From Aquibium carbonis (lineage in GTDB: Bacteria > Pseudomonadota > Alphaproteobacteria > Rhizobiales > Rhizobiaceae): 44,341 bases of DNA. Numbering within the stretch: position 1 is the first letter of the stretch; the number at the start of each line of letters is the position of its first letter. The stretch covers positions 1 to 44,341 of the forward strand of contig NZ_RWKW01000011.1 of assembly GCF_003970795.1 (NCBI RefSeq), read 5' to 3'. Position numbers and translations under genes: made by a program. This document shows positions 1 to 16,373 of this stretch, one piece after another. The notes under the pieces were generated by a model. That model did no database searches. It saw only the letters and a list, made by a program, of their open reading frames with translations, and was not told the origin of the DNA.

Positions 1-632
1 CGTCCGGCCCGTGCCGCCTGGCGCCCGGCATCGGCGGCGTAGTGACCCGCGTCGGCCGCGTAAGCACTGGCGCGGTCCTTCGCGTCGCGAACCGCGTCGG
101 CGGCATCGGCGCCCAGGCGGGACGCCGCATCCGCCACCGAATGGCCCGCATCGGAAACACGGTGCGCGGCGTCGCCGGCGCGCTCGCTCCAGGTAGAGGT
201 GTCGACGCCGTTGCCGTCTCGCGCCTCCAGATAGCCGAGGCCGCCGGCGCCGGTCTGGACGGGCCCGGTGCCGCGGCGCGGCGTGTTGCCGATGACGCCG
301 TCATCCACCGCGCCGTCCGGATAGAAGGCGCTGTCGCCGTCATAGCCGAAGCCGCCATCGTCGGGATAGGGATAGTATTCGCGACGCACCGGCCGGGGAC
401 CGGCAAAGAGCCACGCCATCCCGGCGCCGATGAGCGCGAGGCTGAGCGGATTGTCGCGGACCTGGCGACCGAGGTTCGACACGGCGGCGGAGCCGTTCGA
501 GTCGCCCATGTAGCGGAAGACCTCGTCGACCAGCTGGCCGGGCGACATGCGGTCGCGGATCTGCTCGGCGGTGCCGGCCATCCGGGCGCGGACTTCCTCC
601 GCGTGACGTTCGTGTTCTGTCGAGGATTTCAT
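1..632 (-). CDS. DUF3618 domain protein, C-terminus cut by window edge
   Basis: The reading frame stays open from an ATG at 632 to the window edge, so about 210 residues are visible and the end is missing. The N-terminal ~50 residues (charged helix with RARMAGTAEQIRDRMSP, then a region around NPLSLALIGAGMAWLFAG at ~65-80) fit the DUF3618 pattern: a soluble helix followed by one short hydrophobic segment. The middle is Gly/Tyr/Asp rich (YYPYPDDGGFGYDG) and the tail is an Ala/Asp-rich helical repeat (DAADAVRDAK, YAADAGHYAADAG). An AGGAG sits ahead of the start. Start and upstream stop overlap as ATGA, so it is translationally coupled to the holin-like gene. Function is not known; the context is a stress-induced envelope operon. 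Confidence 0.75.
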   Translation of the reverse strand, partial: MKSSTEHERHAEEVRARMAGTAEQIRDRMSPGQLVDEVFRYMGDSNGSAAVSNLGRQVRDNPLSLALIGAGMAWLFAGPRPVRREYYPYPDDGGFGYDGDSAFYPDGAVDDGVIGNTPRRGTGPVQTGAGGLGYLEARDGNGVDTSTWSERAGDAAHRVSDAGHSVADAASRLGADAADAVRDAKDRASAYAADAGHYAADAGRQAARAG

Positions 633-1024
633 CGCACCTGCTCCTTTGCAACGTCCATGTCACGGCTGACCTGGGCCAGCGTCTTTTCCGGCACCAGCTC
701 CGACGGCGACATGTTGGCCGTGCCGCGGCGAACCAGCATGTAGCCGATCACGGCCACGACCAGTCCGACGAGAAGCGATGCCCAGCCTGCGCCGAGGCCG
801 AGATTGGCCAGGGCGACGACGAGCGCCTGCAGCAGCACCAGAAGCGCGGCCAGAAGCATGACGGCGCCGGCCGCGACCTCCATCAGGCCGGTGCCGGCCT
901 TGCTCATCTTTTCCTGCACCTCGGCGCGCAGAAGCCGCGCTTCGGTGCGGATCAATTCGGCCATCTGGTTGACGAGGTCCGTCACCAGCGTTCCGAGGGG
1001 TCGGGGATCCTGCTGGACGCTCAT
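629..1024 (-). CDS. Phage-holin-family (DUF1469-type) membrane protein
   Basis: A 131-residue protein with an amphipathic, charged N-terminus (~1-45, including LIRTEARLLRAEVQEKM) followed by two hydrophobic segments (about 48-72 and 76-97), then a short charged tail. This layout matches the Holin-X/DUF1469 family found widely in non-phage bacterial chromosomes. There are no phage genes nearby, so a lysis role is unlikely; a role at the membrane under stress is an inference. It overlaps the preceding gene by four bases (ATGA, 1021-1024) and the following DUF3618 gene by four bases (629-632), so the three are one translation-coupled operon. Confidence 0.75.
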   Translation of the reverse strand: MSVQQDPRPLGTLVTDLVNQMAELIRTEARLLRAEVQEKMSKAGTGLMEVAAGAVMLLAALLVLLQALVVALANLGLGAGWASLLVGLVVAVIGYMLVRRGTANMSPSELVPEKTLAQVSRDMDVAKEQVR

Positions 1025-1620
1025 GACATGCCTCCCGTCCGGCTCGAGGGGATCGTGGGCTCGGCGGCGCCGTAAGCACCGGCGGCCGGCGTCGGGCGCG
1101 GCCCCTGCGGCGGGCGCGGCGCGCCGGTGCGCGGGCGGGCGTGGTCGTGCTGCGCGGAGGCGCCGGCGAAACGTCCGATCGCGATGCCGGCGAGGACGCT
1201 GGCGGCGATGAAGCTGACCGGGTGGCGGCGGCCGAAGTCGCGCACCTTGTCGACCATTTCGCCCGCGGACGCGCCCTGCAGGTTGCGCGACAGGCTTTCC
1301 AGCCCCTCGGCGGCCTGACCGACGAGACCGGAGATCGGCCCCATGTCCTTCTTGTCGAGCTCGTCGCGGGCGCTGCGGACGGCGTCGGCGAAGGTCTTCA
1401 GCCCGTCGGCCGCCTGATCCTTCAGGGCCTCGCCGCGCTCGCGGATCTCTTCCTGGGCCTCATGCGCCATGGACGAGGCCTGCTCGCCGATCGCCGCGCG
1501 AGCCTTGTCGAACTCACGGGCGGCAGCCTGCTTCTCGTCTTCGAAGCGCTCGCGGGCGGCATCGGCGTCGGCGCCGACCCGCGTTTTCGGATCGTTGGTG
1601 AAACTGTTCTGATCGTTCAT
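1021..1620 (-). CDS. Amphipathic DUF883/nutrient-deprivation-induced-like protein
   Basis: A 199-residue protein. Residues ~1-110 are a long charged, Ala-rich helix likely to form a coiled coil (RERFEDEKQAAAREFDKAR, EAQEEIRERGEALKDQAADG), followed by a GRRHP motif and one hydrophobic segment (VSFIAASVLAGIAIGRFAG, ~134-152), then a Pro/Gly/Ala-rich tail. The GRRHP-hydrophobic ending resembles DUF883/ElaB-type membrane-anchored proteins, and rhizobial relatives are often annotated as nutrient-deprivation-induced proteins. It starts 12 bases after the 24-aa peptide gene and overlaps the holin-like gene by four bases. The molecular function is unknown; a stress role is inferred from the promoter at 1752-1776. 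Confidence 0.7.
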   Translation of the reverse strand: MNDQNSFTNDPKTRVGADADAARERFEDEKQAAAREFDKARAAIGEQASSMAHEAQEEIRERGEALKDQAADGLKTFADAVRSARDELDKKDMGPISGLVGQAAEGLESLSRNLQGASAGEMVDKVRDFGRRHPVSFIAASVLAGIAIGRFAGASAQHDHARPRTGAPRPPQGPRPTPAAGAYGAAEPTIPSSRTGGMS

Positions 1621-1632
1621 TGATCGCTCTCC

Positions 1633-1707
1633 TCAAGCAAGTCCGAGAAAGGACAGGATGGCCAGGACCACGACGATCAGGCCGATGACGTAGATGATGG
1701 AATGCAT
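1633..1707 (-). CDS. 24-residue hydrophobic peptide, first gene of stress operon
   Basis: A 25-codon frame (ATG at 1707, TGA at 1633-1635) encodes a peptide that begins MHSIIYVIGLIVVVLAILS and ends FLGLA: almost entirely one transmembrane helix. A strong GGAGGT ribosome binding site lies 7 bases before the ATG. It is the first gene after the EcfG-type promoter at 1752-1776 and is followed after 12 bases by the DUF883-like gene. Very similar mini-proteins occur in rhizobial genomes as unnamed hypotheticals (recalled, not searched). It is too short for most gene callers. Function unknown; a small membrane stress peptide is the likely class. Confidence 0.7.
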   Translation of the reverse strand: MHSIIYVIGLIVVVLAILSFLGLA

Positions 1708-1751: not shown

Positions 1752-1776
1752 AACCTGCGGACGGGAAACCTGTTCC
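1752..1776 (-). promoter_or_regulatory. EcfG/RpoE2-type promoter of small-peptide operon
   Basis: On the minus strand GGAAC (1776-1772) is followed by 16 bases and GGTT (1755-1752). This fits the alphaproteobacterial general stress consensus GGAAC-N16/17-CGTT with one mismatch, and the Sinorhizobium RpoE2 form GGAAC-N18-TT exactly. It would start transcription about 40 bases upstream of the 24-aa peptide gene. Confidence 0.6.
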
Positions 1777-1924
1777 ATCGCGCCGGGAAAGTTTCGCCGG
1801 CCGGGCGTCGGTGCGGAGATGTCAGAAGGCAACTACGTAAGTGTAGACGCACATAACGGCTCGACGGACGGTTCGCCTTGCGATCCCGACGCGACGGTGC
1901 GGCAACGGTAACGGCGGTGTGGCG

Positions 1925-3316
1925 TCAGGCGGCGACGCTGTCGGCGCCGCCGGCGCCTTCGAGCTGGTCGATGAAGGTTTCCATCCAGATGCCGACGTCG
2001 CTCTGCTTCACCCGGTCGAGCAGACGCGCATGCCGGTTCTGCCGCTCCTCCAGCGGCATCCTCAGGGCCAGTTCCATCTTCTCCCCCATCTCCTCGGTGT
2101 CGTGGGGGTTGACGATGAGGGCGTCCTCGAGCTCCTCGGCAGCGCCGGCGAACTGGGACAGGACCAGCACGCCAGGATCAGCCGGATCCTGCGCGGCGAC
2201 GTATTCCTTGGCCACCAGGTTCATCCCGTCGCGGAGCGGCGTGACCAAGCCGACCTCGCTGGAGCGGAACATGGCCGCCAGGCGCGGCCGGGGGACAGGC
2301 CGGTGGATGTAGCGGATCGGCACCCAGTCGATGTCGCCGAACTTGCCGTTGATGGAGCCCGACAGGCCTTCCAGCCGCATGCGGATCTCGGCATAGGCGG
2401 TGACGTCCTCGCGCGTGGGCGGTGCGATCTGCAGGAAGGTCACCGTCTTCTCGAGTTCGGGGTGCAGGTGCAGCATGCGGGAAAAGGCCTCGAACCGCTC
2501 GGGGATGCCCTTCGAATAGTCCAGCCGGTCGACGCCGACGATCTGGCGCTGACGCAGGATGGCGCGCCGCATGTGATCGATGTTGATGTCCTCGAACGTC
2601 TTCTCGGCCAGCTCCGTGAACTGGGCGACGTCGATGCCGATGGGAAGCCGAAGCGCGCGCACGGTGCGGCCGCCGCAGCGGATGACGCCGTCGGCGCCCA
2701 TGGCGTCGGGGATGTTCTCCTCGACGTAGCGGTTGAAGTTGTTGAGGTCCGTCGACGTCTGGAAACCGACCACGTCATATTGCAGCAGCGCCTCGACCAG
2801 ATAGGCATGGTTCGGGGAGGCGGCGATGATGTCGGCCGGCGGAAAGGGAATGTGGAGGAAGAAGCCCATCTTGTGCCGGCACCCGAGCGCCCGCAGCCGC
2901 TCGGCGAAGGGAATGAGGTGGTAGTCGTGCACCCAGACCATGTCGCCCTGCTTGAGGAAGGGCTTGAGCAGGGCGGCGAACTTGCCGTTCACCCGCATGT
3001 AGCCCTCGAAATACTGCGGACGGTAGTCGACCAGGTCGACCCGATAGTGGAAGAGCGGCCACAGGACGCTGTTGGCGTAGCCGATGTAATACTGGCTGTA
3101 GTCCTCGACGGTGAGGGGCGAGGAAATCACGTCGACGTCGCCGACCCGATCGATGCCGAGCTTCTCGGTCTCGTTTTCCAGCGTGTTGCCGTCCCACCCG
3201 AACCAGACGCCGCCCTTGGCCTTCAGCGCGTCGGCGATCGCGACGGCGAGGCCGCCCGACTGCGTGGCCTGGCGCAGGTCCGCCACCCGATTGGACACGA
3301 CGACTAGACGGCTCAT
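1925..3316 (-). CDS. otsA: Trehalose-6-phosphate synthase OtsA
   Basis: A GT20-family glucosyltransferase of 463 residues, the usual length. It makes trehalose-6-phosphate from UDP-glucose (or another NDP-glucose) and glucose-6-phosphate in the cytosol. The family landmarks are present: VVVSNRVA at the N-terminus with a QSGGLA loop, WVHDYHL, FFLHIPFP, GVDRLDYSKGIPER and LRDGMNLVAKEYVAAQ. The ATG at 3316 is chosen because the conserved MSRLVVVSNR sequence begins there; the open frame extends farther upstream but overlaps otsB. GGGAG and AAAGGA precede it. It lies 53 bases downstream of otsB, in one operon, and also has its own EcfG-like promoter candidate at 3372-3396. Confidence 0.95.
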   Translation of the reverse strand: MSRLVVVSNRVADLRQATQSGGLAVAIADALKAKGGVWFGWDGNTLENETEKLGIDRVGDVDVISSPLTVEDYSQYYIGYANSVLWPLFHYRVDLVDYRPQYFEGYMRVNGKFAALLKPFLKQGDMVWVHDYHLIPFAERLRALGCRHKMGFFLHIPFPPADIIAASPNHAYLVEALLQYDVVGFQTSTDLNNFNRYVEENIPDAMGADGVIRCGGRTVRALRLPIGIDVAQFTELAEKTFEDINIDHMRRAILRQRQIVGVDRLDYSKGIPERFEAFSRMLHLHPELEKTVTFLQIAPPTREDVTAYAEIRMRLEGLSGSINGKFGDIDWVPIRYIHRPVPRPRLAAMFRSSEVGLVTPLRDGMNLVAKEYVAAQDPADPGVLVLSQFAGAAEELEDALIVNPHDTEEMGEKMELALRMPLEERQNRHARLLDRVKQSDVGIWMETFIDQLEGAGGADSVAA

Positions 3317-3369
3317 TCCTTTGCTACTCCCGGTGGTATCGATTTCTTTCTTCCCTCTCGGACGTAAGG

Positions 3370-4140
3370 CTAACTCGACCCGGCCCGTTCCGTTCCGCCC
3401 GATGGCGGGCCTGCCATTCCCCTCAACCAGGCATGCAGCGCCGCCGGGTCGGGCATTCGATGGGTGGCGATGGTGGGGCCGCCGCCGATCTTGACGGAGA
3501 CGCCGTCCCACCGCGGCAAGGCACCGAAGGCGTCTTCATCGGTCACGTCGTCGCCGAAGAAGACGGGTCGACGACCGCGAAAGGGGGCTTCCGCCATGAA
3601 GTCGGCGACGAGGTCGCCCTTGGTGCGGCCGCTGAGCTTCAGTTCGGCGACCATCTTGCCTTCGAGAAGCGAGAGGCCGGAGGTGTCGGCGACCGCGCGC
3701 GCCAGTTCGCGACAGGCCCGTTCGAGTTCCGGCCGGCGGCGATAGTGCAGCGCCACGGAGGTGCGCTTCGCCTCGACCAGAAGCCCCTCGTGGCTGGCGG
3801 CAAACCGGTTCAGCTGCTCGACCACGCGCTCGATGGACTGGCGGTCGGCCTCGACCTGGTGCCGCCGGCCCTGCGGATCGCGTCGCTCGGAGCCGTGCGC
3901 GCCGCCCAGCGGCAACCGCAACGGCGACAGGAAAGCGTCGAGGGCATCGATCTCGCGGCCGGACACCACGGCAACCGCCCCGCCGGACATCCGGTGCAGG
4001 CGGCTGAGCGCCTCTAGAACCTCGGGGGCGATCCGCACCGCGCGAGGGTCTTCGACGATCTCCGCAAGGGTTCCGTCGAAGTCGAAAAAGAACGCCGTGG
4101 AGGACGGCGGAAAGGCCAGCGTCGAAAGGTCGTCGTACAA
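3370..4140 (-). CDS. otsB: Trehalose-6-phosphate phosphatase OtsB
   Basis: A HAD-superfamily phosphatase that removes phosphate from trehalose-6-phosphate to give trehalose. The nucleophile motif FDFDGTLAEI lies at residues 19-28, VVSGREI is motif II-like, GRTKGDLVADFM supplies the conserved Lys region and FFGDDVTDEDAF is the Mg-binding acidic motif. The frame stays open to a GTG at 4167, but that codon lies inside a good -10 box (TATAGT, 4171-4166) and has no ribosome binding site. The TTG at 4140 has AGGAG ten bases ahead, so it is preferred (256 residues). otsB precedes otsA by 53 bases, forming otsBA. If the TATAGT box is not used, the GTG start adds nine residues. Confidence 0.9.
   Translation of the reverse strand: MYDDLSTLAFPPSSTAFFFDFDGTLAEIVEDPRAVRIAPEVLEALSRLHRMSGGAVAVVSGREIDALDAFLSPLRLPLGGAHGSERRDPQGRRHQVEADRQSIERVVEQLNRFAASHEGLLVEAKRTSVALHYRRRPELERACRELARAVADTSGLSLLEGKMVAELKLSGRTKGDLVADFMAEAPFRGRRPVFFGDDVTDEDAFGALPRWDGVSVKIGGGPTIATHRMPDPAALHAWLRGMAGPPSGGTERAGSS
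3372..3396 (-). promoter_or_regulatory. EcfG/RpoE2-like promoter candidate for otsA
   Basis: Minus strand GGAAC (3396-3392), 16 bases, then AGTT (3375-3372), overlapping the otsB stop codon. It matches GGAAC-N18-TT, with one mismatch in the CGTT form. Transcription would start about 50 bases ahead of the otsA ATG. otsA is a known general-stress target in rhizobia. The match lies inside otsB coding sequence, so chance is possible. Confidence 0.4.
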
Positions 4141-4165
4141 GGCTCCATTGCTCCTGCTGCACTGC

Positions 4166-4193
4166 ACTATAGCGCCAGCCCGGAGAAATCCAA
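4166..4193 (-). promoter_or_regulatory. Sigma-70-type promoter candidate of otsBA
   Basis: On the minus strand TTGGAT (4193-4188), a 16-base spacer and TATAGT (4171-4166). Also read as TTGGA with CTATAG, close to the alphaproteobacterial CTTGAC-N17-CTATAT. The short leader it produces would contain the AGGAGC ahead of the TTG start at 4140. Confidence 0.45.
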
Positions 4194-4319
4194 CCCTCCG
4201 TTGTGCGTTTTGCGATGGCTACACAATTCTAGCGTGTATCACCGCCGCTGCACAATCCGGTTCGTCCGGGGAAGGCGACCCTCGCCGCCGCCCCGTCGCC
4301 CGGCCTTCGGACGGTCCGG

Positions 4320-4583
4320 CTAGGCGCGATATGCCCATGACCGGAACACGGCTCCGGTCTCGTCGGACCCGACCGGGACCCGGCGCTCGGCCCGACCGAA
4401 GGCTTCGGCCAGGCATCGGATGGCGTCCTTGGCCTTGACGAGCGCTTCGGTGGGGCTGGCGTCCGCGGCGTCGAGCGTGATGGTGCCGGTGGCGCCATCC
4501 TCGGTGACGAAGCAGATGGGCGTGGCGGCGGCCTCACCCGGCACGATGGCGTCGAGCTCTGGCGAGCGAGTGATCTGGGGCAT
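4320..4583 (-). CDS. Hypothetical 87-aa protein with EcfG promoter
   Basis: A soluble 87-residue protein without a signal peptide or membrane segment. It starts MPQITRSPELDAIVPGEA, has a central segment that looks like beta strands (ICFVTEDGATGTITLDAAD) and an alpha-helical second half rich in Ala, Lys and Glu (PTEALVKAKDAIRCLAEAFG). I do not recognise a family. The ATG at 4583 has an excellent AGGAGGAAAGA ribosome binding site, and a perfect GGAAC-N16-CGTT promoter lies 42-66 bases upstream, which argues strongly that it is a real, stress-induced gene. It lies between otsBA and the divergent glgE operon. Confidence 0.7.
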   Translation of the reverse strand: MPQITRSPELDAIVPGEAAATPICFVTEDGATGTITLDAADASPTEALVKAKDAIRCLAEAFGRAERRVPVGSDETGAVFRSWAYRA

Positions 4584-4622
4584 TCTTTCCTCCTCCCGGA
4601 TGCGCGGTCAGGCGCATTCCAC

Positions 4623-4649
4623 GGAACGCAGAAGTTGTCTCGCCGTTCC
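4623..4649. promoter_or_regulatory. Symmetrical, two-way EcfG promoter
   Basis: The segment begins GGAACG and ends CGTTCC, so each strand reads GGAAC-N16-CGTT with no mismatch: plus strand GGAAC 4623-4627 and CGTT 4644-4647, minus strand GGAAC 4649-4645 and CGTT 4628-4625. The minus reading would start the 87-aa gene about 35 bases upstream of its ATG. The plus reading points toward glgE. Confidence 0.65.
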
Positions 4650-4703
4650 CTGCCGCCATCGAAATTTCGCGGGACGATGTCCGGGCGGACGCCTTCCGAA
4701 GGG

Positions 4704-4728
4704 GGAACTTTTCCGTGCCGCTCGGGTT
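4704..4728 (+). promoter_or_regulatory. EcfG/RpoE2-type promoter of glgE operon
   Basis: GGAAC (4704-4708), 16 bases, GGTT (4725-4728): the same one-mismatch form as the site at 1752-1776. Transcription would begin near 4735, about 185 bases ahead of the glgE ATG and about 23 bases ahead of a small leader ORF. The rest of the 4584-4921 intergenic stretch holds the two-way site at 4623-4649 and that leader ORF. Confidence 0.6.
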
Positions 4729-4757: not shown

Positions 4758-4916
4758 ATGCGAAACACGATCTGGACTCGAGCCACGAGCCAGTCGCGGC
4801 CTGACCGTGGAACGGCACGCCTGCCCGACGAGCCGGCCATCCGGACGGATTTGCGCAGCGGCGGCGGCGACCCCGCCTCCCCCGCGCCTCACCCTTTCCC
4901 TTCGTCGAACGTTTGA
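4758..4916 (+). CDS. Possible 52-aa leader ORF ahead of glgE
   Basis: An ATG at 4758, preceded by GGAG at a normal distance, opens a 52-codon frame that begins MRNTIWTRATSQSRPD and stops at 4914-4916, five bases before the glgE ATG. glgE itself has no visible ribosome binding site (GTTTGAGAACC), so ribosomes finishing this ORF could re-start on glgE. Against it, its GC3 (about three quarters) is lower than in the neighbouring genes and the peptide is rich in Pro, Arg and Ser with no family resemblance. It may be a translated leader rather than a functional protein. Confidence 0.3.
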   Translation: MRNTIWTRATSQSRPDRGTARLPDEPAIRTDLRSGGGDPASPAPHPFPSSNV

Positions 4917-4921
4917 GAACC

Positions 4922-6954
4922 ATGGCCACGAACGCAAAGAGAAAGCCGCAAGGCGGCCCGGCGCGCGTTGCGCGGAAGATGACGGACCCGCGGCTTGGGC
5001 AACTGGCCGAACGGCGTCTCGCCATCGAGGGGATCGACCCCGAGATCGACGGGGGCCGGTTTCCCGCCAAGGCGGCGCAGGGCTACAGCTTTCCCGTGGA
5101 GGCAGACGTCTTCGGCGAAGGGCACGACGTCGTCGACGCGGCGCTGCTGTGGCGGCGCAAGGGCTCGAACCAGTGGACGGAGGTGGCGCTGGAATTCGAG
5201 GTCAACGATCGCTGGCGCGGCGAGATCGTGTTCCCGGAGATCGGCGACCACGAATACACCGTGATCGCCTGGCGCGACCTCTTTGCCGGATGGCGACGCG
5301 ACGTGGACAAGAAGATCAAGGCGCGACAGGCCGTCGCGCTCGAACTCGAGGAGGGCATCGCCCTCGTGCGGGAGGCGGCCCGCGACCCGCGCGAACCCGG
5401 CGAAGGCGCCGCGCTGGCGGACTTGCTGGCCGAACTGGATCGGCAGCCCGACGAGGCGGCGCGCCTTGCGCTTCTTCTCGGCGAGGACGCCGCGGCGCTG
5501 ATGAAGGCGCTGGCGCCGCGCAACAGCCTGACCTGGTACGAGCGCGTTCTCGACGTGATCGTCGACCGCGAACGCGCGGTCTTCGGCGCCTGGTACGAGA
5601 TGATGCCGCGGTCGCAGTCGTTCGAGCCCGGCCGCCACGGCACCTTCGACGACGTGATCAAGCGCCTGCCCTACGTGAAGGATCTCGGCTTCGACGTTCT
5701 CTACTTCACGCCGATCCATCCGATCGGGAAGATCAACCGCAAGGGACCCAACAACACGCTGACGCCGACGGGCGATGACCCCGGCAGCCCCTACGCGATC
5801 GGATCCGACGAAGGCGGCCACGACGCGATCCATCCCGAACTCGGCACGATCGAGGATTTCGACCGGCTGGTGGAAGCCGCCGCCGCCCACGACATGGAGA
5901 TCGCGCTCGATTTCGCCATCCAGTGCGCGCCCGACCATCCCTGGATCAAGGAACATCCGGAATGGTTCGACTGGCGCCCGGACGGGACGATCAAGTTCGC
6001 GGAGAACCCGCCGAAGAAATACGAGGACATCGTCAACGTCCACTTCTACCGCGATTCCATCCCGGACCTGTGGCATGCGCTGCGCGACGTGCTGTTCTAC
6101 TGGATCGGCCACGGGGTGAAGATCTTCCGCGTCGACAATCCGCACACCAAGCCGTTCCCCTTCTGGGAATGGGTGATCGGCGAGGTGAGGAGCCAGCACC
6201 CCGACGTGATCTTCCTGTCGGAGGCCTTCACGCGGCCCAAGGTGATGAAGCGGCTGGCCAAGGCCGGCTTCACCCAGTCCTACACCTACTACACCTGGCG
6301 AAACCTCGACTGGGAGCTGGAGCAGTATCTCACTGAGCTGACGCAGGAGGAATGCCGCCACTACATGCGGCCGAACTTCTTCGCCAACACGCCCGACATC
6401 AACCCGCGCTATCTCCAGACGGCGGGCCGGCCCGGCTTTCGGACCCGCCTGCTGATGGCGGCGACGCTGGCCGGGAACTACGGCATCTACAATGGCTACG
6501 AGATCTGCGAAGCCGCCGCGCTGCCGGGCAAGGAGGAATATCTGGACTCCGAGAAGTACCAGCTGCGCGAATGGGACTTCGACCGCCCGGGCCACATCAA
6601 GGACGACATCCGCCTGGTGAACCGGCTGCGGCGCGAGCACCCGGCGCTGCGGGACTTCACGTCGCTGCGCTTTCACAAGGTCTCGAACGAGAACGTGCTG
6701 TCCTATTCGAAGGGCACGCCGCAATCGGGCAGCTATCTGCTTTTTCACGTCAATCTCGATCCGCACCAAGCCCAGACGTTCCATTTCGAGGTGCCGCTGT
6801 GGGCGTTCGGCCTGCCCGACGACGGCGCGGTGAAGGTGCAGGATCTCGTGAATGGAAACAGCTTCGCCTGGGTCGGCAAGAATCATACGCTGACCCTCGA
6901 CCCCCAAGCCCGGCCCTATGCGGTCTGGCGACTGCTAGGACCGGTGACGACCTG

Positions 6955-6955
<1 letters not shown>
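4922..6955 (+). CDS. glgE: Maltose-1-phosphate maltosyltransferase GlgE
   Basis: A GH13_3 enzyme of 677 residues. GlgE extends alpha-1,4-glucans by transferring maltosyl units from alpha-maltose-1-phosphate and releasing phosphate. It has the family's N-terminal beta/helical domain (~30-215), then the barrel beginning near WYEMMPRS. The catalytic set is visible: nucleophile D405 in FRVDNPHTK, acid/base E434 in FLSEAFT, and an Asp near 492 in [10 protein letters not shown]; the first two are 29 residues apart as in Streptomyces GlgE. The ATG at 4922 is preferred to an upstream TTG at 4913. It is the first large gene of a five-gene glucan operon and overlaps the next start by one base (TGATG). 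It is likely driven by stress promoters upstream. Confidence 0.93.
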
Positions 6956-10247
<3,292 letters not shown>

Positions 10248-10251
<4 letters not shown>

Positions 10252-12455
10252 ACATGGCCAACAAAGGGTCCGCCCCGCCGGCCGGCGATGTCGACGCCAT
10301 CGTCGCCGCGCGCCACGGCAACCCCTTCGTGGTGCTCGGCATGCATGGCGGGGGCAGCGCGCCCCTGCTGGTCAACGTGTTCGCGCCGGAAGCCGGCGAG
10401 GTGGCCGTCATCGATCGCGCCACCGGCAAGGACGTGGCCGCGCTGGCGCGGATTCATCCGGACGGCTTCTTTTCGGGCCCGATCGAGGGTCGGTCCGATC
10501 GCTTCGACTACCGCTTGCAGCTCACGGCAGGAGAGCACCGCTGGACGATCGACGATCCCTACTCCTTCGGACCGATCCTCGGCGAACTCGACGAATACCT
10601 GATGGGCGAGGGCCGTCACGCCGAACTCTACAAGCGGCTCGGCGCGCATCCCGCCGAGGTCGGGGGCGTTCACGGCACCGTCTTCTGCGTGTGGGCGCCC
10701 AATGCGCGCCGGGTCAGCGTCGTCGGGCCGTTCAACAACTGGGACGGCCGGCGCCACCCCATGCGCAACCGCGTCGGCGTGGGCGTCTGGGAGCTGTTCG
10801 TTCCGGGCCTTCAGGCCGGCACGACCTACAAATACGAGGTTCTCGGCGTCCACGGCGAGGTTCTGCCGCTCAAGACCGATCCGGTCGGCTTCTTCGCCGA
10901 GGAGCCGCCGGCCACCGCCTCCATCGTCAGCGGGCTTCCGCGACACGACTGGAACGACGGGGGCTGGATGAGCCAGCGCGCGGTGCGGCAGGCGACCAAC
11001 CAGCCGATGTCGATCTACGAAGTCCATCTCGGCAGCTGGCGCCGCGGCGCGGCCAACGAAATCCTCGACTACGACGCGCTGGGAGACCTGCTGATCGACT
11101 ACCTCCAGGACATGGGCTTCACCCATGTGGAGTTCCTGCCGGTGACCGAGCATCCGTTCACCGGTTCGTGGGGCTACCAGCCGATCGGTCTGTTTGCGCC
11201 GACGAGCCGGTACGGTTCGCCCGAAGCCTTCGCGCGGATGGTGGACCGGCTGCACCAGGCCGGCATCGGCGTCATCGTGGACTGGGTTCCGGCGCATTTT
11301 CCGTCCGACGAGCACGGGCTGGCGCATTTCGACGGGACGGCGCTCTACGAGCACGAGGATCCCCGTCTCGGCTTCCACCAGGACTGGAACACGCTGATCT
11401 ACAATTTCGGCCGCACGGAGGTGTCGAACTTCCTCCAGGCCAGCGCGCTCTACTGGCTCGACCAGTATCACGTCGACGCCTTGCGCGTGGATGCCGTCGC
11501 CTCGATGCTGTACCTCGACTACAGCCGCAAGCCGGGCGAATGGGTGCCCAACCGCCATGGCGGCAACGAGAACCTCGACGCCGTCGCGTTCCTGCGCGAG
11601 ACCAACCAGCGCATCGTCGAGCGTCATCCGGGCGCGCTGACCATTGCGGAGGAATCGACGGCATGGCCCGGGGTCAGCCGTCCGGTGGGCGACGGCGGCC
11701 TCGGCTTCGACTACAAGTGGAACATGGGCTGGATGCACGACACGCTCGCCTACATGAGCCTCGACCCCGTGCATCGCCGGCATCACCATCACCAGATGAC
11801 CTTCGGCATGGTCTATGCCTATTCGGAAAAGTTCGTGCTGCCGATCAGCCATGACGAGGTGGTTCACGGCAAGGGCTCGCTTCTCGGCAAGATGCCCGGC
11901 GACCGCTGGCAGCGTTTCGCCAATCTCCGCGCCTATCTCGCCTTCATGTGGACCCACCCGGGCAAGAAGCTGATCTTCATGGGCTGCGAATTCGGGCAGG
12001 AGCGCGAATGGAACCACGACCAGTCGCTCGACTGGCACCTGCTCGACGATCCCATGCATGCCGGCACGCGGGCGCTGGTTCGCGACCTGAACGCGCTCTA
12101 CCGCTCCAACGCGGCGCTGCACGAGCTCGACTGCGACCCGCAAGGCTTCGAGTGGCTGGGCGCCGACGACACCGAAAACAGCGTCTATTCCTTCGTGCGC
12201 CGCAGCGGCAGCGGAGAACCGGTGGTGGTGGTGTGCAACATGACGCCGGTGCCACGGCCCGGATACCGTGTCGGCGCGCCGCGCCCCGGCTCCTGGTCGG
12301 TGCGGCTGAACAGCGACGACGCGGAATATGGCGGCTCCGGCGCGGGGCCAAAGGAACCTGTCAAGGCCAGCCCCGTTTCATGGCATGGCAGGCCACATTC
12401 GATGGAGCTCGACCTGCCCCCACTCGCCGTGGTGATTCTCGCTCCGCATCCCTAG
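10248..12455 (+). CDS. glgB: 1,4-alpha-glucan branching enzyme GlgB
   Basis: A GH13_9 enzyme of 735 residues, the normal length. It cuts alpha-1,4 chains and re-attaches them as alpha-1,6 branches. An N1 carbohydrate-binding module (~20-110, [11 protein letters not shown]) and a second CBM48 (~135-235, [20 protein letters not shown]) precede the barrel. Catalytic residues: D415 in [15 protein letters not shown]468 in [11 protein letters not shown] and D536 in [10 protein letters not shown]. The frame is open far upstream through the treS gene; the ATG at 10248 is chosen because it overlaps the treS stop (ATGA) and gives the family's usual N-terminus. It would branch the linear glucan made by GlgE. 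Confidence 0.95.
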
Positions 12456-12462
12456 GAGCACC

Positions 12463-14535
12463 ATGCGCCGCAACGGACAGATCAAGACGGGCTCCCCCTT
12501 TCCGCTGGGGGCCCACTGGGACGGCTCGGGCGTGAATTTCGCCCTGTTTTCCGCCAACGCCACAAAGGTGGAACTCTGCCTCTTCGATGGCGCCGGCCGC
12601 CGCGAGATCGAGCGCGTGGAACTGCCCGAGTTCACGCACGAGGTCTGGCACGGCTATCTCCCGGACGTCCGCCCCGGACAATTGTACGGCTACCGGGTGC
12701 ACGGGCCCTACGAGCCCTCGGCCGGCCACCGCTTCAACCCCAACAAGCTGCTGCTCGACCCCTATGCGCTGGAACTGCGCGGCGACATCCGCTGGCACGA
12801 CGCCGTGTTCGGCTACCGGATCGGCCATCGGCGCGAGGACCTGTCGTTCGACCAGCGGGATTCGGCCTTCGTCATGCCGAAATGCGTCGTGGTCGATCCG
12901 GCCGTGACCTGGGGAAACGACGTGCGGCCCGGCCGCGCCTGGCACGACACGATCATCTACGAAGCCCATGTGAAGGGCATGACCGCGCTGAACCGCGATC
13001 TGCCGGAACAGTATCGCGGCACCTTCACCGGGCTGGCCGATCCGCGCACGATCGACCATCTGGTGAAGCTCGGCGTCACCGCGGTGGAGCTGATGCCCAC
13101 GCAGGCCTTCTTCGACGACCGGCATCTGATCGAACGCGGCCTTTCCAACTACTGGGGCTACAACACGATCGGCTTCTTCGCGCCGGCCACCCGCTTCATC
13201 GCGCCCGGCGCCGGCATCCACGACTTCAAGCTGATGGTGCGCCGGCTGCACGAGGCCGGCATCGAAGTGATCCTCGACGTGGTGTACAACCACACCGCCG
13301 AAGGCAACCAGATGGGGCCGACGCTCTCCTTCCGCGGCATCGACAATGCCAGCTACTACCTGCTCGGCGATGATCCGCGCTATTATTTCGACACCACCGG
13401 CTGCGGCAACACGGTCAACCTGCGCAACCAGCGCGTTCTGCAGATGGTGATGGATTCGCTGCGCTACTGGGTGCAGGACTGCCATGTCGACGGCTTCCGT
13501 TTCGACCTGGCGAGCTCGCTCGGCCGCGACCGCGACAGCTTCGACCAGAACGCGGTCTTTCTCGACGCGGTGCGCCAGGACCCGGTGCTGTCGATGGTCA
13601 AGCTGATCGCCGAGCCGTGGGACACGGGCAACGACGGATACCAGCTCGGCAACTTTCCGCCGATGTGGGCGGAGTGGAACGACCAGTACCGGGACACCAC
13701 CCGCGCCTTCTGGAAGGGCGACGACGGCATTGCCTCCGACCTGGCCGGGCGGCTTCTCGGGTCGGCCGACTGTTTCGAGAAGCGCGGGCGCCGGCCGTGG
13801 GCGAGCGTCAACTTCGTGACCGCCCATGACGGTTTCACGCTGATGGACCTCGTCAGCTACAACGACAAGCACAACGAGGCGAACGGCGAGGAGAACCGGG
13901 ACGGCCACTCGCACAACCTGTCCTGGAACTGCGGCGTGGAAGGCGAAACGGACGACGAGGAGATCCTCGAACTGCGCGACCGGATGCGCCGGAACCTCGC
14001 CGCCACGGTGCTCCTGTCGCAAGGGACGCCGATGATCCTCATGGGCGACGAAATCGGCCGGACGCAGCACGGCAACAACAACACCTATTGCCAGGACACC
14101 GAGATGAACTGGCTGCGCTGGGGCGAGGATGTCGCGGAGCGCGACCAGGCCTTCTTCGAGTTCATGCGCAAGCTCATCCGGCTTCGCCACCAGCAGCCGC
14201 TGCTGCGCCAGCGGTACTTCCTGCATGGCGAACCGCGCCCCACTGGCGCGAGCGGTGTCTGCTGGCTTCGCGCCGACGGCGAGCAGATGACGGACGAGGA
14301 CTGGCACCAGCCGCACACCCGCGCCTTCGCCATGCTTCTGTTCACGACGGAGCAGAAACTGCTGATCGTGTTCAACGCGCATTACGAGGACATCGACTTC
14401 GCCCTTCCCGAGGCGTTCGCGACCGGATGGCGGCGGCTTCTCGACACGGCCGACCCCGGCGCCGAAGACGCGGCGATCGATGGCGGGTTTACGGCTCGCA
14501 GCCGGGCGCTGATGCTTCTGGAGACCACGGCTTGA
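12463..14535 (+). CDS. glgX: Glycogen debranching enzyme GlgX
   Basis: A GH13_11 isoamylase-type enzyme of 690 residues that hydrolyses alpha-1,6 branches, releasing short malto-oligosaccharides. The N-terminal CBM48 starts near GSPFPLGAHWDGSGVNFALF; the barrel carries D348 in FRFDLASSLGRD, E384 in LIAEPWDTG and D456 in TAHDGFTLMDLVSYNDKHN, the typical GlgX signature. AGGAG stands seven bases ahead of the ATG, eight bases after the glgB stop. Its stop overlaps the treZ start. It would supply debranched chains, the substrate type for a TreY/TreZ route back to trehalose. Confidence 0.95.
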   Translation: MRRNGQIKTGSPFPLGAHWDGSGVNFALFSANATKVELCLFDGAGRREIERVELPEFTHEVWHGYLPDVRPGQLYGYRVHGPYEPSAGHRFNPNKLLLDPYALELRGDIRWHDAVFGYRIGHRREDLSFDQRDSAFVMPKCVVVDPAVTWGNDVRPGRAWHDTIIYEAHVKGMTALNRDLPEQYRGTFTGLADPRTIDHLVKLGVTAVELMPTQAFFDDRHLIERGLSNYWGYNTIGFFAPATRFIAPGAGIHDFKLMVRRLHEAGIEVILDVVYNHTAEGNQMGPTLSFRGIDNASYYLLGDDPRYYFDTTGCGNTVNLRNQRVLQMVMDSLRYWVQDCHVDGFRFDLASSLGRDRDSFDQNAVFLDAVRQDPVLSMVKLIAEPWDTGNDGYQLGNFPPMWAEWNDQYRDTTRAFWKGDDGIASDLAGRLLGSADCFEKRGRRPWASVNFVTAHDGFTLMDLVSYNDKHNEANGEENRDGHSHNLSWNCGVEGETDDEEILELRDRMRRNLAATVLLSQGTPMILMGDEIGRTQHGNNNTYCQDTEMNWLRWGEDVAERDQAFFEFMRKLIRLRHQQPLLRQRYFLHGEPRPTGASGVCWLRADGEQMTDEDWHQPHTRAFAMLLFTTEQKLLIVFNAHYEDIDFALPEAFATGWRRLLDTADPGAEDAAIDGGFTARSRALMLLETTA

Positions 14536-16373
14536 CGGGCGGCAGGCCCCCTCGCGCCCTGCCGCCGCTGTCGTGGGGGGCCGAGCATACGGGCGACGGG
14601 GCGGTGCGCTTCCGGCTCTGGGCGCCGGGGCTCGACGCCCTGACGCTGCGGCTCGGCGGCGAGGACCGGCCGATGACGCGCGGACGCAACGGCTGGTTCG
14701 AGCACGTCGCCGACGGGATCGCGCCGGGCACGGCCTATGCCTACGTCCTGCCGGACGGAATGGCGGTTCCCGACCCGGCCGCGCGCGCGCAGGCAAGCGA
14801 CGTGCACGGGCCGTCCCTCGTGGTCGATCCGGCCACCCATCGCTGGACCGCGCCGGACTGGACGGGCCGGCCCTGGGAACAGGCTGTCATCTACGAGCTG
14901 CATGTCGGCACGTTCACCGAGGCAGGCACGTTCGAAGCCGCCATCGAGAAGCTGGACCACCTGGCGGACCTCGGCGTCACCGCGATCGAACTCATGCCGG
15001 TGGGGCAGTTCTCAGGCGATCGCGGCTGGGGCTACGACGGTGTCTTGCCCTATGCGCCGCACCGGGCCTATGGCGGCCCGGACGGCCTGAAGGCGCTGGT
15101 GGACGCGGCCCACCAACGCGGCCTGATGGTTCTGCTGGACGTGGTCTACAATCATTTCGGGCCGGACGGGAACTACATCTCCCTTTACGCGCCGGACTTC
15201 TTCCGCGCCGGGAAGCACACGCCCTGGGGACCGGCGATCGCGTTCGAGGCCGAGCCGGTCCGGCGCTTCTTCGTCGAGAACGCGCTCTACTGGCTCGCGG
15301 AGTACCGTCTCGACGGCCTGCGGCTCGACGCGGTCGATCATGTCGCCGACGACCTGCTGGTCGAGATCGGACGGCGCGTGCGCGAGACGTTTCCGGACCG
15401 CCACATCCACCTGACGACGGAGGACAACCGCAACGTCACCTTCCTGCACCAGCGCGGCGAGACCGGCACGGTGCCGGGCTTCACCGCGGAATGGAACGAC
15501 GACTTCCACAGCATCGCGCACGTGATCGCGACCGGCGAGACGGACGGTTATTTTGCCGACTTCGCCGACGATCCGGCCGGCAAGCTCGCCCGCGCCCTGG
15601 CGGAGGGCTTTGCCTATCAGGGCGAGGTGTCGCCGCAATGGGGCCGGCCGCGCGGCGAGCCTTGCGCGCACCTGCCGCCGACCGCCTTCGTCGATTTCCT
15701 GCAGAACCACGACCAGGTGGGCAACCGGGCCTTCGGCGAGCGCCTGCCCGCCCTCGCCTCGCCCGACATGCTGCGGGTGCTGACGGCGATGCTGCTGCTG
15801 TCGCCGCACATCCCGCTGCTGTTCATGGGCGAGGAGTTTTCCGAGGATCGGCCGTTCCTGTTCTTCACCGATTTTCGCGGCGATCTCGCGAAAGCGGTGA
15901 CCGAAGGCCGGCGGCGCGAATTCGCGACGTTCGCGGCCTTTCGCGACGGGGAAGCGGCGCGGCGCATTCCCGACCCCAACGACCCCGGGACGTTCCTCGC
16001 GTCCAAGCTCGACTGGACGAAGCCCGGCCTCGGACGCGGGCGGATCCGGCTCGACCAGATCCGCCGGCTGCTCGCGACAAGGCGCGAAACCATCGCGCCG
16101 CTGCTGGCCTCGGCGCGCGGCCACAGCGGAACCATCCGCGACGCCGCCGAGGGTGTGGTGGCGGTCGACTGGAGGCTCGGCGGCGCGAGGCTGAGCCTGC
16201 GCGCCAATCTTTCCGGCACGACGCGCAGCGCACCGGGGCTCGATGCACCGGTTCTCTTCGCCGAACCGGCGGAGACGATGGCCGTCCTGGCCGACCGGGT
16301 GGAGATGCCGCCCGTTTCGATCGTGGTTGGCCTTGCTCCGCAGGGAGAAGCGGCAACGCGCGCCGAGGGCTGA
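14532..16373 (+). CDS. treZ: Malto-oligosyltrehalose trehalohydrolase TreZ
   Basis: A GH13_10 enzyme of 613 residues that releases trehalose from malto-oligosyltrehalose. The N-terminus [20 protein letters not shown] is the family's CBM48-like domain. Barrel motifs: D266 in [13 protein letters not shown]297 in HLTTEDNRN and D394 in [16 protein letters not shown]. No suitable ATG exists ahead of the conserved part; the TTG at 14532 has GGAG eight bases upstream and overlaps the glgX stop (TTGA), so it is taken as the start. Its usual partner TreY (malto-oligosyltrehalose synthase) does not follow; upp does. Either treY lies elsewhere or this TreZ works alone. Confidence 0.9.

Follow-up and report, generated by a model that had tools for sequence, protein, structure and literature searches.

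Candidate EcfG-type promoters before trehalose, GlgE glucan and membrane-peptide genes in Aquibium carbonis point to control by one general stress switch

The window analyzed here is a stretch of 44,341 nucleotides (nt) from Aquibium carbonis (contig C20 of a 5.34-Mb, 188-contig genome with 68% GC). Near its start, the genes for trehalose synthesis, a GlgE-type glucan operon, a gene for an 87-residue protein and an operon whose first gene encodes a 24-residue membrane peptide lie side by side (Table 1). Across 3 kb of this DNA each of the four gene groups is preceded by a match to GGAAC-N16-NGTT, the type of promoter read by EcfG, the general stress sigma factor of Alphaproteobacteria, and these four sites are the subject of this report.

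An earlier note on this DNA, made from the sequence alone, had predicted a five-gene GlgE operon, and family models identify all five genes: glgE, a treS-maltokinase fusion, glgB, glgX and treZ. GlgE, TreS, maltokinase and GlgB, the enzymes of the GlgE pathway, are thus encoded together. Over the best segment, this GlgE shares 86% identity with its counterpart in Aquibium sp. ELW1220 (L033) and 79% with the one in an uncultured Mesorhizobium (L032), which places the organism close to Aquibium within the Hyphomicrobiales. With treZ placed after glgX, the operon also carries a glucan-to-trehalose enzyme, TreZ, whose gene starts at TTG 14532 or, alternatively, at GTG 14604. Both the synthase and the phosphatase of the OtsBA pathway are encoded on the opposite strand. 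OtsA falls slightly below the cut-off of TIGR02400 (560.5 versus 564.85 bits), and a codon model starts otsB at the TTG at 4140, while an earlier GTG would extend it to 3370-4167. No Pfam or NCBIfam model matches the 87-residue protein or the 24-residue peptide, and the sole match of the 199-residue protein in the family-model search was to a sub-threshold apolipoprotein model. A putative role of the peptide and its neighbours as membrane-stress genes agrees with what they encode: a small membrane peptide, a holin-X-like protein and a coiled-coil-like protein.

Table 1. Genes and candidate promoter sites at the locus (positions in the window)
Feature	Position	Strand	Evidence or remark
Holin superfamily III-like (holin-X-like) membrane protein	629..1024	-	PF07332, E 6.8e-25
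199-residue coiled-coil-like protein, gene 2 of the peptide operon	1021..1620	-	begins 12 nt after the peptide stop codon
24-residue single-helix membrane peptide	1636..1707	-	stop codon 1633-1635
Candidate EcfG-type promoter, peptide operon, GGAAC-N16-GGTT	1752..1776	-	exact match; 44 nt before the 24-residue reading frame
otsA, trehalose-6-phosphate synthase	1925..3316	-	PF00982, E 3e-119, over cut-off
otsB, trehalose-6-phosphate phosphatase	3370..4140	-	PF02358, E 4.1e-36; TIGR00685 over cut-off
Candidate EcfG-type promoter, otsA, GGAAC-N16-AGTT	3372..3396	-	exact match; 55 nt before otsA
87-residue protein, narrow distribution	4320..4583	-	open reading frame, no family match
Inverted-repeat partner of the 87-residue gene site, GGAAC-N16-CGTT, oriented to glgE	4623..4647	+	exact match
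Candidate EcfG-type promoter, 87-residue gene, GGAAC-N16-CGTT	4625..4649	-	exact match; 41 nt before the reading frame
Candidate EcfG-type promoter, glgE operon, GGAAC-N16-GGTT	4704..4728	+	exact match
glgE, maltose-1-phosphate maltosyltransferase	4922..6955	+	PF11896, PF21702, PF00128 over cut-off
treS-maltokinase fusion	6976..10251	+	TIGR02456, TIGR02457 over cut-off
glgB, glucan branching enzyme	10248..12455	+	NF003811, TIGR01515 over cut-off
GGAAC-N16-CGTT within the glgB 3' end	12353..12377	+	85 nt before glgX; doubtful internal promoter
glgX, glycogen debranching enzyme	12463..14535	+	TIGR02100 over cut-off
treZ, malto-oligosyltrehalose trehalohydrolase	14532..16373	+	TIGR02402, 698-699 bits, cut-off 538.8

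The four sites that the earlier note had described are all exact, oriented towards the gene they precede and at plausible promoter distances. Each has a GGAAC-N16/17-NGTT counterpart in both the Mesorhizobium and the Aquibium sp. ELW1220 locus, where the intergenic DNA is otherwise poorly alignable: the peptide site recurs at the equivalent place in both, and the site of the 87-residue gene recurs in N17 form in Aquibium sp. ELW1220 and in N16 form in Mesorhizobium. The latter site, singled out earlier as a perfect match, can in addition be read towards glgE, as it shares nearly all its bases with the plus-strand match at 4623-4647 in an inverted repeat, GGAAC-N17-GTTCC. This second match is a possible distal promoter for glgE and has no counterpart in either of the two relatives. 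A bidirectional promoter as a special device was considered and rejected, given the absence of the inverted repeat at 4623-4649 from both relatives and the presence of further overlapping pairs elsewhere in the genome (contigs C19, C44, C161 and C166); since any GTT followed by CC creates such a repeat, we regard it as incidental. The candidate internal promoter of glgX was likewise rejected: of 37 relatives, 2 have a match within 250 bp upstream of glgX.

GGAAC-N16-NGTT occurs six times in the window, five of them inside the 3-kb stretch, and each of the 21 alternative spacers between 8 and 29 yields zero to four matches. A second-order Markov model predicts 0.06 matches per 2977 bp and produced at least four in 1 of 2000 draws. 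Genome-wide there are 162 matches versus 108 for a reversed-pattern control (65 versus 37 for the CGTT subset, 55 versus 23 for the GGTT subset), a density at which 0.09 sites are expected in 2977 bp. When 158 sites, a number chosen manually because some of the 162 form overlapping pairs, were placed at random, a four-site cluster of this size arose in 23 of 2000 simulations. A lone match therefore means little, and the comparison of local density with the genomic background that the earlier note had proposed, carried out here with a fixed motif, shows that four sites in 3 kb are rare. Among the matches listed, which comprise the first 100 of the 162 and all 120 CGTT or GGTT sites, one other cluster is equally dense, and it lies on contig C161 beside and within the phyR-nepR-ecfG locus. 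Sixty-two of the 120 sites are intergenic with a called start of an open reading frame (ORF) no more than 300 nt downstream in the correct direction (27 of them at 22-47 nt from the start), whereas 18 control spacers, scanned over this DNA, gave 25 such sites out of 81; of the remainder of the 120, 6 are promoter-placed inside a gene, 17 are intergenic with no called start and 35 lie inside genes. The figure of 62 of 120 is rough, as starts were called with an ad hoc codon model built from a handful of window genes, which overlooked treZ, chose a later glgE start (a distance of 250 instead of 193 nt) and left the site before a DUF1328 gene without a start.

Conservation of the glgE promoter was assessed on the coding strand of the 600 bp upstream of glgE in the best 80 of 172 relatives. 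This revealed GGAAC-N16/17-NGTT in 43 of the 80, with spacers of 6-15 and 18-29 in zero to four loci each. The 46.6 kb of upstream DNA held 45 N16/17 matches on the plus strand, and 14 N16 matches and one N17 match on the minus strand; the remaining 1.02 Mb, with both strands counted, held 59 N16/17 matches. Loci with the motif include Aquibium, Chelativorans, Paracoccus, Cereibacter, Roseovarius, Amorphus and one Kiloniellaceae genome, and among the 80 it was not found in the Aurantimonas-Aureimonas-Fulvimarina-Jiella loci, Afifella or Microvirga. As a separate observation, a 52-codon ORF at 4758-4916 fills most of the gap between the candidate glgE promoter, about 30 nt upstream of it, and the glgE gene, which follows directly; its translation has no evident likeness to that of the 43-codon counterpart in Aquibium sp. 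ELW1220.

Of the genes tested, the one for the 24-residue peptide is most often preceded by the EcfG-type motif. Using the 24 residues as a query, we found the peptide in 49 of 121 genomes of the family and 29 of 385 of the class (31 by profile); it occurs in 47 of 398 genomes of the phylum, 15 of them outside the class and one of those marginal. A tblastn search of a plasmid collection with the consensus peptide, a method that is weak for 24 residues, gave no match. Sixty loci were compared, comprising 30 at family level, 29 at class level and a second copy in this genome (contig C14, 293-364), itself preceded by an N16 site at a distance of 30 nt. The ORF is 24 residues long in 59 of the 60 and 25 in one; G9, V12 and G22 are invariant, and 58 begin with M, V or L, the aligned first residue at the other two loci not being a start codon. 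Differences by codon position (14109/2826/22411) and Shine-Dalgarno-like motifs at 53 of the 60 loci indicate that the ORF is coding. The stress motif precedes the peptide in 38 of the 60 loci, its 3' end 23-102 nt from the start, and other spacers occur in at most one locus per set. Twenty-four of 26 further loci were then used, two being dropped as repeats (L356 and L360): the motif was present in 9 of 16 from Alphaproteobacteria (8 of 15 when L357, a repeat of L151, is left out) and in 0 of 8 from other classes, which came from 8 of the 15 non-alphaproteobacterial genomes with a match. NepR was found in all 16 of the alphaproteobacterial genomes and in none of the 8 others. The difference suggests that the motif is a feature of the EcfG system rather than of the peptide gene.

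What follows the peptide is often a coiled-coil-like protein, the arrangement in the window, or a membrane protein of about 300 residues with a motif resembling YIDWxAI...GSAIGL, as at the C14 copy and in many other genomes (L199:389-1279 and homologues). The YIDW protein at the C14 copy matches no Pfam or NCBIfam model, and at other peptide loci neither neighbour was seen. Four typical nine-residue strings of the peptide did not occur in the literature searched, from which most subscription papers and all supplements were beyond reach; a search there on small membrane proteins and EcfG listed nothing on it, although it could be listed in subscription papers or supplements. On balance we favour the view that the peptide at 1636-1707 represents an undescribed, length-constant family of single-helix micropeptides and a widespread effector of the EcfG response, often encoded after an EcfG-type promoter and before a coiled-coil-like or YIDW protein, with another regulator driving it in non-alphaproteobacterial genomes that lack NepR. 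At 24 residues it is below the usual annotation length, and it may be an envelope effector of the stress response that annotation has overlooked.

The genome also encodes the machinery for such a response, namely PhyR (NF006623, 377.5 bits versus a cut-off of 240), NepR (E 2.5e-13), an EcfG-type sigma factor and a HWE kinase. The sigma factor gene adjoining nepR is complete, and its product scores 339.2 bits against NF009199 (cut-off 219); this model is named merely 'RNA polymerase sigma factor', and we conclude from the position beside nepR and phyR that the protein is EcfG. At this locus on C161 (L031 and L198), phyR is divergent from nepR and the sigma factor gene, with the HWE kinase and DUF1328 genes nearby, and an N16 or N17 motif ends 36 nt before the HWE kinase gene, 41 nt before the DUF1328 gene and 60 nt before phyR. 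Two more overlapping, bidirectional EcfG-type sites precede a gene for a glycine-zipper protein beside phyR-nepR-ecfG (L198, G000:C161:31000-43500; 2406-2536). In 14 control genomes, NepR was detected in Caulobacter only. The idea that Rhodobacterales lack the partners of EcfG was dropped, with NepR found there and the locus described in PMC5830050.

The interpretation put forward in the earlier note, common control by a stress sigma factor, is supported by the presence of a NepR/PhyR/EcfG-type switch in the genome and by the conservation of the motifs before glgE and the peptide gene in distant Alphaproteobacteria. We consider it very probable that the four sites are promoters for EcfG and that they switch all of the gene groups jointly. 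The motifs, their conservation and the machinery genes are seen directly in the sequences, and we infer from there the use of the sites by EcfG, the signal, the flow of metabolites and the role of the peptide. The switch would follow the published model. Under stress, PhyR would be phosphorylated through the HWE kinase and would take up NepR, releasing EcfG to read GGAAC-N16/17-NGTT. Free EcfG would turn on otsA, or perhaps otsBA by read-through from the promoter of the 87-residue gene, along with the glgE-treS/mak-glgB-glgX-treZ operon, the 87-residue gene and the peptide-led operon. Trehalose is established as a feed for TreS-maltokinase and GlgE. Trehalose from OtsBA would act as an osmoprotectant and would also supply the TreS-Mak-GlgE-GlgB glucan route, and a single signal would raise both pools. 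An envelope arm would consist of the membrane peptide, which probably modulates a membrane partner, and the proteins encoded with it. Extrapolating from the roles of trehalose and GlgE glucan in Pseudomonas aeruginosa, joint induction would cover osmotic stress and drying.

Several observations weigh against this reading. About two thirds of the genome-wide matches are at the background level of a 68% GC genome, and conserved coding sequence alone can accumulate motif-like pairs, as seen for spacer 22, with 97 matches outside the glgE upstream regions. The glgE site lies 193 nt upstream of ATG 4922, and 37 of the 80 glgE relatives lack the strict motif; with one mismatch allowed, 17 of these 37 had a match at spacers 16/17 versus 5-11 for other spacer pairs, an excess that is suggestive only. 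NepR was present in 22 of 22 tested genomes of the glgE set, four of them motif-less, so absence of the glgE motif does not equal absence of the switch. Similarly, seven of the 16 further alphaproteobacterial peptide loci lack the motif despite NepR, five of them from one genus, and the eight non-alphaproteobacterial genomes come from just three families. The otsA site overlaps the 3' end of otsB, within its last codons, and in 30 otsA loci, drawn from 59 genomes with a match, the motif precedes otsA in 7, the window counted, and otsB in 4 others. From the literature, otsA of R. etli is constitutive in stationary phase and its otsB (p)ppGpp-induced (PMC3188799), an rpoE2 deletion in Ensifer aridi had no phenotype (PMC8877191), and PMC5830050 counts against a uniform physiology across species; physiology may thus differ between species.

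The otsA promoter, with AGTT instead of CGTT, a position in otsB codons and few conserved counterparts, is the weakest of the four, and a narrower explanation starts from it: only the glgE, 87-residue gene and peptide sites would be used, the otsA match would be a coincidence of otsB coding, and otsBA would be transcribed from the promoter of the 87-residue gene as one transcript. There is no terminator-like site on the minus strand between the 87-residue gene and otsB, and the promoter at 4625..4649 possibly reads through to otsBA. A terminator-like site does lie inside otsB on that strand (4109-4093), although such sites are not in excess in the region (3 found versus 2.1 expected), and the RNA fold of 4140-4330 is nothing special (z -1.38). 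Against a coding coincidence, Aquibium sp. ELW1220 retains 24 of 25 bases of the otsA site while the flanks diverge, an N17 version stands at the equivalent place in the Mesorhizobium locus and in L167 (G127, same genus), and before otsA spacers other than 16/17 occur in at most one locus each. Of 121 family genomes, 2 carry the 87-residue gene, one of them being the genome of the window, and it is also present in the Mesorhizobium and Aquibium sp. ELW1220 loci; with this narrow distribution, the conservation of its promoter is local, seen in those two relatives. We regard partial use of the sites as possible but doubtful.

Another ECF sigma factor, or a paralogue of EcfG that recognizes the same sequence, could also read the motifs in place of the nepR-linked factor. 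Paralogous EcfG factors have been published for other species (PMC7083833, PMC4814048), but the peptide motif is confined to NepR-bearing genomes among those tested and the sigma factor gene beside nepR is present and complete, and we think this unlikely. That the four sites are chance matches in GC-rich DNA, clustered by accident, is highly improbable: the match count of the reversed-pattern control and the occasional four-site cluster under random placement lend it something, but against it stand the spacer-specific conservation of the motif upstream of both glgE and the peptide in distantly related genera and the fact that all four sites are correctly oriented at plausible distances.

Joint control by EcfG would put three protective outputs encoded at a single locus, trehalose, GlgE alpha-glucan and a membrane peptide, under one switch. 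The conservation evidence suggests that GlgE synthesis belongs to the general stress response in at least two alphaproteobacterial orders, including Rhodobacterales, where the role of PhyR is unclear. The regulon is of a known type and its trehalose part is already known biology; GlgE as a predicted EcfG target would be a modest extension that looks new, and the least expected part, the 24-residue peptide, looks new as well. No paper on GlgE with EcfG or RpoE2 was found in the literature searched, from which, again, most subscription papers and all supplements were beyond reach.

Among characterized systems, Bradyrhizobium diazoefficiens has otsCB, otsA and treS under EcfG control (PMC8092242) and resembles what is predicted for A. 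carbonis in having the trehalose-6-phosphate pathway and treS together in the regulon; it differs in its otsCB-otsA layout, and the main text of that paper contains no word starting with glg. In Ensifer, expression of the otsBA operon is RpoE2-mediated (PMC8877191). Sphingomonas melonis has an EcfG-dependent cluster of treY, 4-alpha-glucanotransferase, treZ and glgX genes and a GGAAC-N17-20-GTT motif (PMC6599016), and thus has glucan and trehalose genes under EcfG, as predicted here, with treZ and glgX in common with the operon of A. carbonis; the cluster is, however, described without GlgE, and the region upstream of glgX was treated as a putative indirect target. In Pseudomonas aeruginosa, trehalose and GlgE glucan metabolism are integrated, with trehalose protecting against osmotic stress and GlgE glucan against desiccation (PMC8084333), a metabolic link like the one predicted here; unlike A. 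carbonis it is a gammaproteobacterium, and Caulobacter alone among our control genomes had NepR. The general EcfG (ECF15) regulon of Alphaproteobacteria has in common with this locus and its genome the GGAAC-N16/17-NGTT promoters, the PhyR-NepR-EcfG locus with a HWE kinase, and trehalose genes as targets; it differs in that in A. carbonis otsA, the GlgE operon, the 87-residue gene and the peptide operon lie within 3 kb, each with a site of its own.

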